Shown here: positions 4,032-46,647 of the stretch, piece after piece | Layout: each line of letters opens with the position of its first letter | Numbering within the stretch: the stretch's first letter is position 1 | IMG/VR virus record: IMGVR_UViG_3300009509_000038 | Span: 1-46,647 of that record | Direction: 5' to 3' (one strand) | DNA length: 46,647 bases | From: a virus | Program-made: the position numbers and the translations under genes | Notes under the pieces: generated by a model | Database searches by the model: none | What the model was told of the DNA's origin: nothing | Seen by the model: the letters and a program-made list of their open reading frames with translations, nothing else

Positions 4032-4384
4032 TGACTTGGGTACTATGGTTAGATGATGTAAGAGATCCGACTTGGAGACAAGAGCGTGAGAAGTGGGATT
4101 ATGAATGTGAAGAGATCTATCCTCCACCCTTTTGGTGTAGGGATTATGCTACAGCTGTAGCTATGATAAATCTTCATGGTCTTCCAATAATGATGTATCT
4201 CGATCATGATCTTGGATATAAAGAAACTGGGATGAATTTTCTTAAGTATTTGCAAGAAAAATTTGCAGATCAGAAGCCACCAGAATACTATCTGCTTACA
4301 GCTAATGTAGTAGCCTGGAAAAATATGGAATCTTTTATGGAATCGTGGTTAAAGGTTTGGGAAAACGAACAGAAAGAAGGTTAA
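4031..4384 (+). CDS. cREC-type receiver-domain protein
   Basis: This gene encodes 117 residues. The N terminus WVLWLDDVRDP and the later YLDHDLG...TGMNFLKYL are the hallmark motifs of the small cyclic-phosphate-processing receiver domain (cREC_REC family), a relative of response-regulator receivers that keeps acidic metal-site residues. Such proteins are common in phages and are thought to act on cyclic phosphates; this function is family knowledge and not proven here. There is no DNA-binding output domain. The gene is coupled by TAATG to the gene before it and lies directly before a ribbon-helix-helix gene. A counter-defence role, for example against cyclic nucleotide signalling, is speculation. 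Confidence 0.7.
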   Translation: MTWVLWLDDVRDPTWRQEREKWDYECEEIYPPPFWCRDYATAVAMINLHGLPIMMYLDHDLGYKETGMNFLKYLQEKFADQKPPEYYLLTANVVAWKNMESFMESWLKVWENEQKEG

Positions 4385-4386
4385 TT

Positions 4387-4557
4387 ATGAAAAGCAATGA
4401 GACAAAAACAAGACCAGTATCGATAAGGCTTTCCGATGAAGAATTCAAAGCTTTAGACAAAAAGGCCAAAAAAGCTGGAGTCAAAAGGCATCGGCTTATG
4501 AAAGAGATCATTCGTAAAGCTGTGGGCCTGGCAACTGTAACGGACGTGACAGAGTGA
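4387..4557 (+). CDS. Ribbon-helix-helix DNA-binding protein
   Basis: This gene encodes 56 residues, starting at ATG 4387 behind GAAGG; an upstream in-frame start lies within the previous gene and is less likely. The beta strand RPVSIRLSDEEF followed by KALDKKAKKAGVKRHRLMKEII is a standard ribbon-helix-helix (Arc/MetJ/CopG class) layout. Such proteins bind DNA as dimers and usually repress nearby promoters. It is the only clear transcription regulator seen in the window, so it may control the accessory promoters, though no operator was identified. Confidence 0.75.
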   Translation: MKSNETKTRPVSIRLSDEEFKALDKKAKKAGVKRHRLMKEIIRKAVGLATVTDVTE

Positions 4558-4560
4558 AAC

Positions 4561-4782
4561 ATGAAAGCTGGAGACATAGTAGAGATCTATGATGATCCTC
4601 TTACCAGAAGACATTCTCAGGGCTTAGCTAAGCTTATTCGCTTATTACATGTAATCTATGAGGGAGAAACGGAATATTGGAAAGTGCGATTCTTGAAAAC
4701 TAATAAAGTAGCCGATCGCACGATCTATATAATTGAAAGGAAACAAGATGAAGGAAATAGAATTTCAAAAACTGTACCATGA
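4561..4782 (+). CDS. Small beta-rich hypothetical protein
   Basis: This gene encodes 73 residues, starting three bases after the preceding TGA. The opening MKAGDIVEIYDDP and the later YWKVRFL resemble small SH3-like barrels found in phage early genes. There are no catalytic residues. Its 3' end overlaps the next gene by 35 nt in another frame. Confidence 0.55.
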   Translation: MKAGDIVEIYDDPLTRRHSQGLAKLIRLLHVIYEGETEYWKVRFLKTNKVADRTIYIIERKQDEGNRISKTVP

Positions 4783-4954
4783 ATACCAACAAGCTGGAGA
4801 TAATTTGCTAGCTTGCCCGGTATGCTCTAAATCGGCTGAGCAATGTAGCAATCGCTGTACTGACAAATTCACCATAGCTTTTGCTGAGTTCAAAGCTATT
4901 CCTGGTGGCTATGGCTATGAGCATAGGGTCAGGATCTTGAAAGGAAACAAATGA
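4748..4954 (+). CDS. Small zinc-finger-like hypothetical protein
   Basis: This gene encodes 68 residues. The start at 4748 has GAAAGGA 6-7 nt upstream. CPVCSKSAEQCSNRC near residues 23-37 gives CxxC plus CxxxC, a possible zinc knuckle. The rest has no recognised fold. It overlaps the neighbouring genes on both sides. Confidence 0.55.
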   Translation: MKEIEFQKLYHEYQQAGDNLLACPVCSKSAEQCSNRCTDKFTIAFAEFKAIPGGYGYEHRVRILKGNK

Positions 4955-5193
4955 AAATTACATTTGAAGTAAAATCGGTTGATATACTACGTGGCAAATT
5001 TGTAGACACTATTGTTTTTCGTGTATCAGATAGTACTACGCCATTCCCAGAAAAGTCTGTGGCTATGAAAATGTACATTGAGCCCAAACTACAGATAGAA
5101 ACAGAAGCTGGGTTTGCAGAAATCTGGCTAAAGCAAAATTGGATTAACTGTGATGTCAATGTAATTGATACTGTAAATTGGAGAGTAAAATGA
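4951..5193 (+). CDS. Hypothetical protein (80 aa)
   Basis: The ATG overlaps the previous stop (ATGA), with AAAGGA upstream. The sequence is beta-rich and weakly acidic (ITFEVKSVDILRGKFVDTIVF). No family was recognised. It overlaps the start of the lipoprotein gene by four bases. Confidence 0.55.
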   Translation: MKITFEVKSVDILRGKFVDTIVFRVSDSTTPFPEKSVAMKMYIEPKLQIETEAGFAEIWLKQNWINCDVNVIDTVNWRVK

Positions 5194-5807
5194 AAAAAAT
5201 AACAATCTTATTACTATTCTTGAATAGCTGCTACATGAGCTACATACCTGAAGATGAAGCTAAAGTAGAAGATGAAGCTACATCTGATAGCTATTTTGTT
5301 ATAGAAGCGGACTCACAAACAGAAGTTACTGTTGATTCTGGCATAGTTGATATTGAAATTGAGCCAGTTGATATTGAAAAAGAATCAGAAACAGCTTCAA
5401 CCGAAGCTAAACCAAGCAACAAATCGGCTAAGCAAGAGTTACAAGAGCCAATTCTTTATGATATAGTGCCTAAGCAGGGTTGCATAAATAAAGATACAGA
5501 AATCTATCTTGTAGGAATGCACATACACTGGGAAGCTTCTATTCGGATAAAATATCAAAAAGACGCAGAATTCACAACCTTTGATCAAAAGCTGGTAGAT
5601 GAATGCAATAGATCCTTGATAGATTGGTATGATGTTATAATGATAAGTTTCAGAACCAGGCCAGATCTTATTCTAAATGACGAATATGGCTTTCTCAGTG
5701 GGGAATATAAGCTAATAGTTGTTAATCCAGATAGTAAAGAATCTAACGAGATAGGGCTTAGCTTAAAGTATTGTGGTAATGAAGTTGAAGAGATAGAAGG
5801 TTGCTAG
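5190..5807 (+). CDS. Phage-encoded lipoprotein with IPT/TIG-like domain
   Basis: This gene encodes 205 residues, starting at 5190 behind GGAGAG. The N terminus is a short lipoprotein signal: MKK, a hydrophobic run and the lipobox LNSC with the modified cysteine at residue 14. Residues about 20-90 form an acidic Ser/Thr/Glu-rich tether. Residues about 95-205 look like one immunoglobulin-like IPT/TIG domain, with PxQGCINKDTEIYLVGMHI at its start and GEYKLIVVNPDSKESNEI at its end. The product should be lipid-anchored at the host cell envelope. Phage lipoproteins of this kind often block superinfection or change the cell surface. It is the last gene of the accessory block, next to the packaging genes. 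Confidence 0.75.
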   Translation: MKKITILLLFLNSCYMSYIPEDEAKVEDEATSDSYFVIEADSQTEVTVDSGIVDIEIEPVDIEKESETASTEAKPSNKSAKQELQEPILYDIVPKQGCINKDTEIYLVGMHIHWEASIRIKYQKDAEFTTFDQKLVDECNRSLIDWYDVIMISFRTRPDLILNDEYGFLSGEYKLIVVNPDSKESNEIGLSLKYCGNEVEEIEGC

Positions 5808-11275: not shown

Positions 11276-14104
11276 ATGAAAAAAGAAAAATCAGTCACAT
11301 CAACCGTTTTAGAAGATGGCGGAAAGCTATATCCTGCTAGTGGCTATAAAAGTAGGCTGCTACCAGAAGAAGGTATAAAGATAACGCCACCTAAGATAGC
11401 AAAATCAATTGTAAATTGTGAAGCAAATTTGTTTGTTAGAACAGCTTCTTCCAATTGTAACGATATAGATGGAAAAAACTTGCTACTTCTTAGCATGGAT
11501 AAGGCTCTTGGTATTGTGAAATTTGGCAAATCATTCATGATTGAGCCAAGTGATTTTGCAAAATATGAAGAGAAGCATCTTATAACCGAAGAGATGCAAA
11601 AGGAATGGGGGGAAGTGCAGCCATCCTGGAACTACGGGCCATATGTTGCGTGGGAAGTTGAATTTATTGAAAAGTTTGATGAACCGCTAGAATGCAAATA
11701 TGACAGAAGCTCACTAGAAATTATGGTGAATAAAATCTGGGTTAGCGAACCAGTTAAGGCAGAAGTTGAAGAACCCAAAGAAGAAATTGAAGAATTTCCG
11801 ATAGAAGAAATAGCTAATGAGCCAATTGAAGTAAGACAAATAGAAATCACCAATAGCCTAAATCCAGAAAGTCTTACCACAGAAGAATTGGTGGATGTTC
11901 ATTTTAATTTACATAAAGCATATCAGAAAAGTGAAACGCTCAGTACAGAAGAATTAATGAATTTGCATTCATTGGTTGTTGATGAACTATATGTAAGAAA
12001 TGAGCCACATCCGGTTCCACCAGATAACGGACTAGATCAAGAATCTTATGACTTTGAGCTATATGCTGAAAAGCAAAATAAATGGTTTGAATTAAATAAA
12101 GCTGTTTGGTCAACAGCATATATCAATACATTACCCGATAGCGCTTTCCTATATGTTGAAAGCGGTGGAAAGAAGGATGAAGAGGGCAAAACTGTACCTA
12201 GAACGCTAAGGCACTTCCCCTATAAAGACGCAAGTGGCAAGGTTGATTTACCTCATCTAAGGAATGCTATAGCTAGAATTCCTCAAAGCAAAATAGGCTT
12301 ATCAGCAGATCAGCTTGAAAGCTTACAGAATAAAGCAAGAAAAATTCTTGAAGATGAGAATAAGAAGGTGGAGAGAAAATTTATTGATGAATTGGCAGAT
12401 CTATATGCTTCTCCACCAAAAGAAGGACAAACCTATAAGTATGTTGTACAACAACACTGGCGCGGCAAGTCGGTTCATTCTGATATTAGAATGAGCTATG
12501 ATCCTGGCAAAAAGCTTATTGGCTGGACACTAAATACTCAGGTTCCTGGAGCTGTAAAAGAGCCAGTTATAACATTAGATCAAGCTGAAAAATTGGCTAA
12601 AAATCTGTCCAAAATAAGCAAAATTGATTGGAATAATGACCAATGGAGTAAATCTGAAATTCTATCTGAGAAAAAAGCCCAAATGCCTTGGGAATGGATC
12701 AATGTAGAAGGCAAGATAGAAAAGCCAGAGCCAAATGAACCAGTTCCAGCTGGAGCTACCAGAGAATATCCAGGTATCATTGATATAGTTGCTAAGGGAA
12801 CATTTGAATACGGGGCTCAAAAGAATGATTTTCATGAGTATTTCTTTAAAGGAACTGGATTAAATTCAAGGGTGGTTTTTAGGCAGTTAAACATAAAGAA
12901 GAGTGAATCTACAATTTGCAGTGGGTGTGGTTCTGAAGAAGAGATACTTGATGTCTCATGGTCGGGAAGCAATGAGATATCTTGCATGTGTGAAAAGTGT
13001 TTTGTTGAATTTATGAAAGCTCAAGGTGTATTCTCTTCTGTCCAAAAAGCAGAGAAAAGGGTTACATGGCTAGCAATACGACCAGAAGATCAAACACCAT
13101 ATGCCATAAGCGATAGAGCTGTTAGCAAAAGCTGGATGCCACAAGCAGGTTATTCAGCACTTCCTTCAGAAATTAGGAAGCAGATTCCAGAGAAATTCCA
13201 ATACTGGAATGAAACAGAAGGAGCTAAAGCAACAAGGGATGAATTGGTCAAAGCTATCAAAAATGGCGAAGTTGATATTGATTTTTCAGCCCCATACAAA
13301 AAGTCAACTACGCTTTCTAAAGCTAATGCTAAATTCGTTTTACAGAAACAATCTTTTGGAGATGAAGGTAAAAATAATATTAGGATAGATGTAGGCAATG
13401 ACTTTGTTACTGTATTAGATCTATCTGATAATCCAATAGGCAATGATGTAATTAATACAACAATCTGGAGAGATAAACATAAAGACTCAATGGATATTGA
13501 TGGAAGAACTAGCCCTAAGCATTATATCAATAAGGGTGTTGGTTCAGCTTCAGATATCACCACTCTGGATAGTGGCAATGCAACAATTATATCAGAAACA
13601 GACGAATTAATAGAGGTTATTTTCAAGGGTAAATTGCTAAATGGTCTTTATAAAATAGAGAAAATTGAAGATATCTGGAGCCTTTCAAGAGCTGGAAACT
13701 TTAATGATTTCAACCTATCTATTGAAAAGCACGAATTGAAGAAAGCTGAAGATGGTAAAGAGCTTAGGCTAGTTACTGGAATAGTATTAGAGCCTAATGA
13801 GGTTGATGCGCATAACGATTATGAAAAGCCTGAAACTATTCGCAAAACAGCACATAAGTTTCTATCTAACTATAATAAAGATACGAGAATGGGATTAATG
13901 CATTCAGAATTTGATAATATAGGGATAGAATTAGTAGAGTCCTACATTGCACCTGTAAAACTTACACTGAATAAAAAAAATATAAAAAAGGGCAGTTGGG
14001 TGATGACAGTGCACGTTTCCAGTGATAGTGTATGGAATAAGGTGAAGAGTGGCGAACTGACAGGTTTTAGTATTGGCGGAATAGCCACAGTAGAAGGTAA
14101 ATAA
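11276..14104 (+). CDS. Multidomain head protein with C-terminal XkdF-like prohead protease
   Basis: This 942-residue protein begins behind AGGAGGC. Residues about 275-360 carry a conserved phage module (AYINTLPDSAFLYVE, then VPRTLRHFPYKD and DLPHLRNAIARIPQ). Residues about 385-450 resemble the LigD-type 3'-phosphoesterase fold (KYVVQQHWRGKSVHSDIRM, then LIGWTL). Residues 548-575 hold a likely zinc finger (CSGC and CMCEKC). Residues about 595-670 are another conserved stretch (WMPQAGYSALPSEIRKQIP). Residues about 825-942 match the XkdF-like S78 protease: TGIVLEPNEVDAHND, H876 in LMHSEFD, then GELTGFSIGG with S932. The protease should mature the head. The long N-terminal part is unusual compared with simple XkdF proteins. 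The stop overlaps the scaffold gene start. Confidence 0.85.
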   Translation: MKKEKSVTSTVLEDGGKLYPASGYKSRLLPEEGIKITPPKIAKSIVNCEANLFVRTASSNCNDIDGKNLLLLSMDKALGIVKFGKSFMIEPSDFAKYEEKHLITEEMQKEWGEVQPSWNYGPYVAWEVEFIEKFDEPLECKYDRSSLEIMVNKIWVSEPVKAEVEEPKEEIEEFPIEEIANEPIEVRQIEITNSLNPESLTTEELVDVHFNLHKAYQKSETLSTEELMNLHSLVVDELYVRNEPHPVPPDNGLDQESYDFELYAEKQNKWFELNKAVWSTAYINTLPDSAFLYVESGGKKDEEGKTVPRTLRHFPYKDASGKVDLPHLRNAIARIPQSKIGLSADQLESLQNKARKILEDENKKVERKFIDELADLYASPPKEGQTYKYVVQQHWRGKSVHSDIRMSYDPGKKLIGWTLNTQVPGAVKEPVITLDQAEKLAKNLSKISKIDWNNDQWSKSEILSEKKAQMPWEWINVEGKIEKPEPNEPVPAGATREYPGIIDIVAKGTFEYGAQKNDFHEYFFKGTGLNSRVVFRQLNIKKSESTICSGCGSEEEILDVSWSGSNEISCMCEKCFVEFMKAQGVFSSVQKAEKRVTWLAIRPEDQTPYAISDRAVSKSWMPQAGYSALPSEIRKQIPEKFQYWNETEGAKATRDELVKAIKNGEVDIDFSAPYKKSTTLSKANAKFVLQKQSFGDEGKNNIRIDVGNDFVTVLDLSDNPIGNDVINTTIWRDKHKDSMDIDGRTSPKHYINKGVGSASDITTLDSGNATIISETDELIEVIFKGKLLNGLYKIEKIEDIWSLSRAGNFNDFNLSIEKHELKKAEDGKELRLVTGIVLEPNEVDAHNDYEKPETIRKTAHKFLSNYNKDTRMGLMHSEFDNIGIELVESYIAPVKLTLNKKNIKKGSWVMTVHVSSDSVWNKVKSGELTGFSIGGIATVEGK

Positions 14105-45157: not shown

Positions 45158-46647
45158 ATGATATCTATAACGCTAGACAACAATTATGTTTATATCCGAA
45201 ATGTGCCACCAGCTTTATTTGGCCTTCTGCGTGAAAAAACAAGCTATCGTGTAGCTGGCTATCAGCACACAACAGCTTACCAAGAAGGCAGATGGGATGG
45301 AAAAAAATATTTACTAACCTACTCTAAAGCTGAAAAAGTATTTAAAGCTCCAGCTGGATTAGCTGAAAAAATAGTTGGAATAATTGAAAATAATGGAATT
45401 AAGTGGGAATTAACAGATCTAAGAATTTATCCCAAATACAATCTTGAATTTAATCAAGTTACTGGCTTACGACCCTACCAGCAAGAAGCCTTAGCCTTAG
45501 CTACAGAAGAATACGGAATTACCAAGTCTATTGGTAGGGGCATTATAAAGATCCCACCAAGGGGAGGGAAGACGCTAATTGCTTCTGCCATAGTTGCAAG
45601 GTTAGGGGTTAGAACGCTATTTATAGTACCTTCCCAATTACTACTCTACCAAAGCCAGAAAGCCTTATCTAAGGCTCTAGAAACAGAAATAGGTATATTG
45701 GGCGATGGAGTATGGGAACCGTCTAATATAACCGTTTCTACAGCTCAGACACTATTAGCAAAACGCAATACTCCAGAATATCACAATGTTATAAACAATG
45801 TTGATCTTATGCTTGTTGATGAATGTTTTCCAGCTGGAACAATAATTGATGAAAGGCCAATAGAATCAATTAAGGTTGGTGAATATGTAACATCTTATAA
45901 TGAAAACACAAAAAAAATAGAAAAACAAAAGGTAATCAACATCTTTCGCAATAAATGCAAACAATTGGTAATAATCAAAACAGATAATAAAGTTCTAACC
46001 TGTACACCAACACATCCAATTTTTACACAAACAGGTTGGAAAAACGCTATTGATTTGACAACCAGTGATATGGTGCTATACACCACATATGAAAAAAGAA
46101 ATAAAAACAAATTGTTTTTGGTGCAAAAAAGAAATATTTGTAAGTGGATGCAAATTAGATCAATTAAGAAGATATGGTCACGCCTATTGTTCAAAAGAAT
46201 GTTCAAAAGCATATCGAAGCAAACGTTCTTCAGAAACAATGGCAAAAACAAACAAGAAATATGCATCAGAAAGAATGAAAAAAAACAATCCAATGAAAAG
46301 ACCAGAAATACGAGCAAAGGTTTCTACAATACACAGAATAAATGGATGGAAGCCGCCAATTCAAGGTGGAAATGGGAGAGGGCCAACGCTGCCCCAACTA
46401 CTATTGGCAACAACACTTGGGTGGAAAATGGAATTTATTCTTCCAACGAAATGTGGTGTAAAGGGTGGATTACCGAGTCATTACAAGATAGACATTGCGA
46501 ACCCAATATTAAAAATTGCGATAGAGGTAGACGGTTCAAGTCACAATACTTTAAGGGTAAAAGCTGCGGATCGAAGGAAAGACAATTTCTTAATTGGTCA
46601 AGGGTGGAAAGTGTTGAGATTCTCAAATCAAGAAGTTCTGACAAATG
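45158..46647 (+). CDS. SF2 DNA helicase (UvsW-like), interrupted by an intein, cut by window end
   Basis: The frame is open from ATG 45158 to the window edge. Residues 1-100 resemble the N-terminal domain of T4 UvsW-type helicases (SYRVAGYQHTTAYQEGRWDG). LRPYQQEAL (Q motif-like) and KIPPRGGKTLIASAI (motif I, Walker A) follow near residues 104-145, then VSTAQTLL. Motif II is reached at VDLMLVDE (215-222), where C223 begins the intein. The host protein's remaining motifs lie beyond the window. UvsW-type enzymes unwind branched DNA in phage replication and recombination. No ribosome site was found, and the start is probably leaderless. Confidence 0.85.
   Translation, partial: MISITLDNNYVYIRNVPPALFGLLREKTSYRVAGYQHTTAYQEGRWDGKKYLLTYSKAEKVFKAPAGLAEKIVGIIENNGIKWELTDLRIYPKYNLEFNQVTGLRPYQQEALALATEEYGITKSIGRGIIKIPPRGGKTLIASAIVARLGVRTLFIVPSQLLLYQSQKALSKALETEIGILGDGVWEPSNITVSTAQTLLAKRNTPEYHNVINNVDLMLVDECFPAGTIIDERPIESIKVGEYVTSYNENTKKIEKQKVINIFRNKCKQLVIIKTDNKVLTCTPTHPIFTQTGWKNAIDLTTSDMVLYTTYEKRNKNKLFLVQKRNICKWMQIRSIKKIWSRLLFKRMFKSISKQTFFRNNGKNKQEICIRKNEKKQSNEKTRNTSKGFYNTQNKWMEAANSRWKWERANAAPTTIGNNTWVENGIYSSNEMWCKGWITESLQDRHCEPNIKNCDRGRRFKSQYFKGKSCGSKERQFLNWSRVESVEILKSRSSDK
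46055..46082 (+). promoter_or_regulatory. Promoter inside the intein for the nested endonuclease gene
   Basis: TTGACA (46055-46060), a 16-nt spacer ending TGC, then TATACA (46077-46082). The geometry equals that of the HNH promoter and the three accessory promoters. The endonuclease ATG at 46089 is 7 nt beyond the -10, so its message should be leaderless. The promoter is written within codons of the intein splicing domain. Confidence 0.7.
46089..46647 (+). CDS. Homing endonuclease (Vsr/DUF559, EDxHD-like), nested out of frame in the intein, cut by window end
   Basis: At least 186 residues are visible in a frame different from helicase and intein. C9-x2-C12 and C34-x3-C38 (YCSKEC) form an N-terminal zinc finger. 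NNPMKRPEIRAKVS (66-79) resembles a NUMOD3-type DNA-binding motif. The nuclease core is YKIDIANP with D135, then AIEVDGSSH with E146, D148 and H152, then AADRRKD with D161 and D165, ending QGWKVLRFSNQEV. This is the Vsr-like fold known in EDxHD homing enzymes, several of which lie between split-intein halves. No ribosome site is visible before ATG 46089, but a promoter is placed for a leaderless start. The stop lies outside the window. Confidence 0.85.
   Translation, partial: MKKEIKTNCFWCKKEIFVSGCKLDQLRRYGHAYCSKECSKAYRSKRSSETMAKTNKKYASERMKKNNPMKRPEIRAKVSTIHRINGWKPPIQGGNGRGPTLPQLLLATTLGWKMEFILPTKCGVKGGLPSHYKIDIANPILKIAIEVDGSSHNTLRVKAADRRKDNFLIGQGWKVLRFSNQEVLTN

Follow-up and report, generated by a model that had tools for sequence, protein, structure and literature searches.

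Two open frames at the end of a phage contig

Can a single stretch of phage DNA encode both a contiguous intein and, in another frame, the homing endonuclease (HEN) of that same intein? The question was raised by a sequence-only reading of the IMG/VR virus record IMGVR_UViG_3300009509_000038, positions 1-46,647 (the whole stretch of 46,647 nucleotides analysed here, referred to as the window), which ends at 46647, inside the feature, and where two frames were claimed to be open together for about 560 nt at the contig end. An ORF scan to the window end agreed with this claim, as the helicase/intein frame (45158-46645) contains no stop, the HEN frame contains none from its ATG at 46089 through the window end, whereas 17 stops interrupt the third frame. 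In our interpretation, which we hold with high confidence, the locus carries a class-1-type intein at the Walker B site of a helicase together with a HEN overprinted in the +1 frame, and would combine a cis-splicing precursor, a separate and internally initiated HEN, homing, selected avoidance of stops and a dual-coded tail. The features of the locus are the following.

45158..45823, + strand: N-extein, an SF2 helicase (UvsW_N and ResIII) up to the Asp-Glu of motif II/Walker B, which is the intein insertion point (Pfam ResIII 1e-12, UvsW_N 6e-6)
45760..45823, + strand: probable co-conversion tract (sliding identity against the relative L002; last extein mismatch at 45772)
45824..46090, + strand: N-terminal splicing domain of the intein, with Cys1 at 45824 and block B T-P-T-H at 46004-46015 (Pfam Intein_splicing/PT-HINT)
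46089..46647, + strand: overprinted HEN ORF in the +1 frame, with its ATG at 46089 and open at the window end; N-terminal zinc knuckle and DUF559 nuclease (ORF; DUF559 3.4e-10)
46091..46645, + strand: intein-frame reading of the HEN DNA, a stop-free linker, predicted to be disordered, bridging N- and C-intein (0 stops; AlphaFold)
46482..46544, + strand: HEN nuclease motif Y-K-I-D-I-A-N ... I-E-V-D-G-S-S-H (alignment A1)
46577..46645, + strand: dual-coding tail, read as GWKVLRFSNQEV in the HEN and as RVESVEILK, the start of the C-terminal splicing half, in the intein (continuation in L002; rates; AlphaFold)

The intein frame is contiguous in a nearly identical relative

Because the contig breaks off ahead of the C-intein, this part of the reading rests on L002, an IMG/VR relative on a 90-kb contig whose intein is 99.9% identical to that of the window. 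In L002 the helicase, N-intein, HEN-overlapped segment, C-intein and helicase C-terminus form a single unbroken ORF, and the intein frame reaches block F/G, ending VYNLEVENTHTYFANKILVHN|C, before passing into the helicase C-domain (Pfam Helicase_C 7.5e-17; Intein_splicing 2e-12, spanning the entire intein). The continuation into blocks F/G and the helicase C-domain, which the sequence-only reading had proposed to look for beyond the contig end, was thus found, and neither a split intein nor a stop just past the window end, either of which it had named as contrary to its view, is present in this relative. The L002 HEN is complete in the +1 frame and DUF559/EDxHD-like, with its stop at the equivalent of window position 46685, 50 nt short of the intein end.

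Comparison of the two loci over 45824-46646 revealed one mismatch within the intein (46425), plus the final base of the window. The helicase exteins upstream are mostly 68-92% identical per 50-nt block, and identity climbs to 98-100% in the last ~60 nt before 45824. Near-identical inteins in divergent exteins are probably the signature of recent homing with a short co-conversion tract.

Stop codons are avoided in the intein frame

In the phase observed, an intein codon consists of position 3 of one HEN codon and positions 1 and 2 of the next, and only NNT followed by AA, AG or GA in the HEN frame creates an intein-frame stop. Such stops are averted in the window by C-ending HEN codons at 46124, 46151, 46220, 46253, 46286, 46334, 46484, 46544 and 46583. 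Our recount confirmed the earlier hand count of C at sensitive codons, giving 9 of 9 versus 8 of 52 at the others (earlier 8 of 50; Fisher p=1.4e-6), and the other genes of the window showed no effect in the same contexts (24% versus 22% C). Extending the analysis to 86 non-redundant overprinted HENs yielded 1408 C and 0 T at sensitive sites and 2396 C and 3437 T at other pyrimidine-ending codons; with 125 non-redundant HENs (28,127 codons) the figures were 2059 C and 0 T, and 3858 C and 4798 T elsewhere (45% C). With more than 2000 sites and no exception, this signal is among the clearest for gene overprinting, and it bears out the earlier view of an intein frame held open by selection.

A second frame might also be open by accident, through low use of T-ending codons, or appear so through an assembly error. 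Synonymous resampling with local codon usage predicted ~6-27 stops per HEN, and the GC-rich members, for which few (5-7) are expected, lend this alternative some support. However, all 711 control 555-nt segments taken from the window's own genes are interrupted in that phase, by 22 stops on average and never fewer than 12; C is about equally frequent in both contexts in control genes of the first loci examined (49.5% versus 49.8%); and four same-family HENs that are not overprinted carry 28 C and 95 T at the sensitive sites. The absence of bias in control genes and non-overprinted relatives, the same arrangement in isolate phage genomes, and the invariant C at sensitive sites refute chance statistically and leave it a negligible probability. 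Selected stop avoidance also fits the phase itself: all stops of the phase in use are synonymously removable, unlike those of the other phase, which are unavoidable in 80 of 86 HENs, and this explains the choice of phase.

Overprinting is the rule in a large intein family

Relatives of the HEN were gathered from IMG/VR, GTDB genomes and phage isolates. The profile search of viral contigs used an alignment narrower than that of 34 HENs described below, whose members were too diverse, and queries with single members added few loci; IMG/VR holds at least 370 relatives. In more than 100 phage loci, isolate genomes included, the same phase was observed with a stop-free intein frame. Across the HEN, the intein frame had no stop in 41 of the first 41 loci, the remaining frame having as many as 31, and 70 of 74 further loci were overprinted in the identical phase without an intein-frame stop. 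The isolates with this arrangement comprise Vibrio phages CP-T1, K391, 159E43-1b, 104E43.1, 1.194.O and 1.088.O, Corynebacterium phi673 and Pseudomonas MR14. In their records one annotated protein, the helicase CDS, covers the entire locus and the HEN is unannotated, so that a whole endonuclease family, missed by annotators, is hidden in 'helicase' annotations of cultured phages.

A survey based on the N-intein gave the same picture, with HEN sequence in the +1 frame and no intein-frame stop in 76 of 79 DECFPAG-type inteins; of the others, two are mini-inteins that lack a HEN (130 and 135 aa) and the third is truncated by the end of its contig. Every HEN-bearing intein of this type thus has its HEN in +1 relative to the intein (76/76), and no in-frame HEN or split intein was found among the 79. 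As the same phase recurs in more than 100 loci, including isolate genomes, a one-base sequencing error near 46091-46098, the other contrary finding named at the outset, is excluded. The search for homologous loci therefore showed that the arrangement, far from being a singleton, is what a large intein family normally has. L002 and these loci together support an unbroken intein in which the insert is its own HEN gene read in another frame.

The endonuclease frame is conserved

All 34 HENs aligned (alignment A1) were assigned to DUF559 and share an invariant Y, D, E, D, G, H motif and a further conserved D. An AlphaFold model of the HEN reached a pLDDT of 91.8, and when used in Foldseek its top match was I-Bth0305I (PDB 3r3p; probability 1.0, TM-score on target 0.65); sequence-based relatives in the PDB were 3hrl (E=5e-10) and I-Bth0305I 3r3p (E=0.05). 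The model thus predicts a PD-(D/E)xK-type core as in I-Bth0305I, and the nuclease is classed as EDxHD-like by fold and family.

If only the intein frame were functional, the HEN frame would be a decayed pseudogene riding along, and indeed six loci have lost most or all of the HEN (L173, L174, L182, L207, L183 and L206). The intact HENs nevertheless change mainly at third positions: in the middle of the gene, the rates at codon positions 1, 2 and 3 were 0.106, 0.078 and 0.268 (15 independent pairs), and because change concentrates at HEN third positions the HEN is the constrained frame in this part of the overlap. Conservation of the catalytic motifs at 35-55% identity, the confidently predicted fold and the recent intein transfer between the window and L002 likewise argue against decay, which we consider very unlikely; an intact, separately constrained HEN is the reading followed below.

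Probable expression of the endonuclease

HEN starts were assigned independently of the SD, as the nearest start codon upstream of the first zinc-knuckle CxxC (84% ATG). The SD at 81 such starts averaged -5.0 kcal/mol, compared with -2.3 kcal/mol at out-of-frame starts of the same genes (p=8e-13), and strong SDs were present at 51% of HEN starts versus 8.5% of out-of-frame starts. In many cases the DNA of the SD site is read in the N-intein as D-D-E-V or K-G-D. Furthermore, in 31% of loci the HEN frame is closed by a stop no more than five codons before the start, and in L003 the stop directly precedes it.

These observations bear on whether the HEN could instead be made as an N-extein/N-intein/HEN fusion, by a programmed +1 frameshift near the N-intein/HEN junction. 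Such a fusion would accord with the HEN frame being always +1 to the intein and with the SD being weak at the start in the window and L002 (-2.8 kcal/mol) and not strong at about half of the loci. It is opposed by the marked SD enrichment at HEN starts, and the HEN-frame stop just upstream of the start in nearly a third of the loci leaves little room for it. We regard the fusion as improbable and internal initiation as the better account for the family, although frameshifting or another signal is possible at the window, as its own SD is weak.

The splicing domain and its dual-coded tail

Cys1, T67/H70 and HNC are conserved or invariant among the inteins (alignments A4 and A6), the block A Cys and block B His being invariant in A6; the window shows Cys1 and TPTH, and HN|C is read in L002. 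In the AlphaFold model of the intein-frame precursor the two Hint halves have a pLDDT of 92-97, and the overprinted insert (residues 102-257) one of about 40, i.e. it is predicted to be disordered. Foldseek with the intein model matched the DnaB, RecA, RadA and NrdJ-1 inteins. By its catalytic residues and Hint fold the element is placed among the class 1 inteins, with splicing predicted.

In the HEN tail lying over the C-intein, one piece of DNA is read both as the motif GWxVLRF of the HEN and as the strand RVxSVE of the intein. The third-position rate falls there to 0.113, versus 0.268 in the middle (p=2e-15), and a slowing at positions 1 and 2 parallels this in part (ratio p=0.03). Moreover, in L173, L174, L182 and L207 most of the HEN was removed by in-frame deletion and exactly the HEN tail was kept, as expected if the splicing domain needs that tail; in L174, for example, the HEN tail WKVLRFTNKQV... 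is overprinted with intein EKVESVTIHKQTS...VYNIEVE. The whole HEN has been lost by in-frame deletion in L183 and L206, leaving mini-inteins of 130-135 aa, and all six deletion loci are possible ready-made mini-inteins. Stop avoidance, the HEN rates, the dual-coded tail and its retention indicate that both frames are constrained beyond chance, as in an overprinted gene pair.

Exceptions, split forms and negative controls

Overprinting is absent from four HENs that belong to the same family. One of them, L141, is a true fractured gene with an N-intein ORF (194-814), a HEN (699-1469) and a C-intein/C-extein ORF (1334-2452), and has 26 stops; the others (L082, L092 and L126) are free-standing HENs with 29, 31 and 9 stops, respectively. 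In the HEN tree these four nest among the overprinted ones and require three changes (midpoint root, modest support), which is consistent with, although it does not prove, a derivation of split and free-standing forms from overprinted ancestors. The sequence-only reading had pointed out that known fractured genes have a stop before their free-standing HEN; in L141 the N-intein ORF closes a little way past the HEN start. Split and free-standing forms are rare nested exceptions in the present HEN family.

The existence of L141 also gives some ground for supposing that the intein frame at the window is really broken, with the C-intein translated separately as part of a split intein. Contiguity in L002, whose intein is nearly identical, refutes this there, and the contiguous DECFPAG-type inteins of the survey, together with all isolate loci, make a split at the window a most improbable explanation compared with a contiguous intein.

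In L092 (4391-4440), the free-standing HEN lies just 5' of a helicase in which the reading frame changes right at the motif II insertion point (ORFs 4054-4428 and 4391-5581); this change may be a scar left by repair of the homing site, or an error in the sequence. Two candidates were rejected as family members and served as negative controls, namely L034, a free-standing nuclease gene (21 stops), and L036, with an in-frame HEN and the C-intein in another ORF (25 stops). In L036 (2547-5764) a different nuclease is in frame with the N-intein, the ORF closes beyond the nuclease, and a different frame encodes the C-intein VYNLGVAEDMTYFANGILVHNC, which is a second kind of fractured arrangement.

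Insertion target and mobility

With few exceptions the inteins are inserted at the DE|C of Walker B/motif II, where the residue after Cys+1 is usually His. Their host genes are as different as ResIII/UvsW and SNF2 helicases, clamp-loader genes (L016 and L130) and a putative helicase-methylase (L017). This is consistent with recognition by the HEN of the DNA of a motif common to these hosts, and suggests spread between unrelated NTPase genes via one common target motif. In L039, L122 and L138, which carry the same overprinted HEN family, insertion is after DEGH/DEAH (DE-x-H|C), two codons downstream of DE|C. Mantel correlations were 0.59 for HEN and intein, 0.44 for HEN and extein, and 0.27 for intein and extein; HEN and intein distances correlate more strongly than those of intein and extein, as for a unit travelling together, but mobility is not everywhere independent of the host lineage, because the HEN-intein correlation is partly shared with the exteins.

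Proposed mechanism

In the model we propose, the class-1-type intein occupies the Walker B (DE|C-H) codons of the phage helicase, with the HEN overprinted in its +1 frame. Translation from the helicase start would give a single precursor of N-extein, N-intein, disordered linker, C-intein and C-extein, the linker being the out-of-frame reading of the HEN gene, and the intein, judging from its catalytic residues and fold, would excise itself in cis, leaving an intact helicase. Ribosomes would also start internally at the HEN codon, at many loci presumably via an SD inside N-intein codons, yielding a separate zinc-knuckle DUF559/EDxHD-like endonuclease. This enzyme may cut intein-less DE-C-H alleles and so cause the element to be copied by homing, of which the recent transfer between the window and L002 would be a visible instance. 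Selection forces C wherever a synonymous T would interrupt the intein frame with a stop, and the 3' portion of the HEN gene also encodes the first beta-strand of the C-intein.

We see about even chances that these loci make up a large undescribed class of mobile inteins entangled with their HEN, in which the gene is overprinted, its tail DNA is that of the C-terminal beta-strand of the splicing domain, initiation is internal and uses an SD concealed within splicing-domain codons, and fractured genes, split inteins and mini-inteins arise upon a stop or an internal deletion. The family suggests a testable route between contiguous, split and mini-inteins. It would also represent a new encoding solution for the intein/HEN partnership, in which a single DNA segment yields both an independent endonuclease and an unbroken intein that splices in cis, and offers synthetic biology a natural model of gene entanglement in the compact dual-use design of a selfish gene.

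Relation to known systems

With canonical large inteins carrying in-frame LAGLIDADG or HNH nucleases, the present elements share the Hint domain, Cys1, TxxH and the terminal His-Asn/Cys+1, as well as the position of the nuclease between the splicing halves and insertion in a conserved nucleotide-binding motif. They differ in that the HEN is not in frame but in +1, would be a separate protein, and leaves a disordered linker as the in-frame insert. Fractured genes with split inteins and a free-standing endonuclease between N- and C-intein are known from phage and metagenome sequences, the nuclease reportedly being of the Vsr-like/EDxHD family. In these genes the HEN is likewise separately encoded between N- and C-intein, but the intein is in two ORFs, a separation that we found in this HEN family only in L141, whereas here one contiguous ORF runs through the HEN with stops actively avoided.

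The closest precedent is the ShiLan domain, an out-of-frame HNH endonuclease in a phage methylase with the host frame open, without an intein and with apparent active homing, where the in-frame product remains in the protein and no RBS is detectable (Arsenault, Gosselin and Gogarten 2025, PMC11855218). An out-of-frame endonuclease within an insertion that leaves the host frame open is common to both systems. ShiLan has no splicing element, whereas here splicing domains flank the HEN and a complete intein is predicted to remove the insert; its nuclease is HNH without a detectable RBS, whereas here it is DUF559/EDxHD-like, many loci have SDs and stop avoidance is quantified (PMC11855218). I-Bth0305I (EDxHD, PDB 3r3p) shares the fold of the catalytic domain and the phage homing context, but is intron-encoded, only weakly similar in sequence (E=0.05) and has other accessory DNA-binding parts.

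Actinobacteriophage inteins of 'non-canonical architecture' (Gosselin et al., preprint, bioRxiv 2025.01.02.630785) and the non-canonical inteins of Gorbalenya 1998 are cited for overlapping frames in PMC11855218 and, as far as that citation goes, may include related arrangements. In the open literature searched, with Dassa et al. 2009 on fractured genes (doi 10.1093/nar/gkp095), Gorbalenya 1998 and Gosselin 2025 outside its reach, no other description of an overprinted intein HEN was found. The novelty claimed by the sequence-only reading accordingly appears to stand for a contiguous intein with an alternate-frame HEN and avoided stops, but not for an out-of-frame endonuclease as such, for which the HNH in the methylase is a precedent (PMC11855218).

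Other features of the window

A 942-aa ORF in the window (11276-14104) has a prohead protease domain (Peptidase_S78_2) confined to the 120 residues at its C-terminal end; neither Pfam nor PHROGs has a match to its first 810 residues. The contig as a whole is a myovirus-like phage fragment encoding a terminase large subunit, portal, tail sheath, tape measure and baseplate, and an endolysin gene lies immediately 5' of the helicase.
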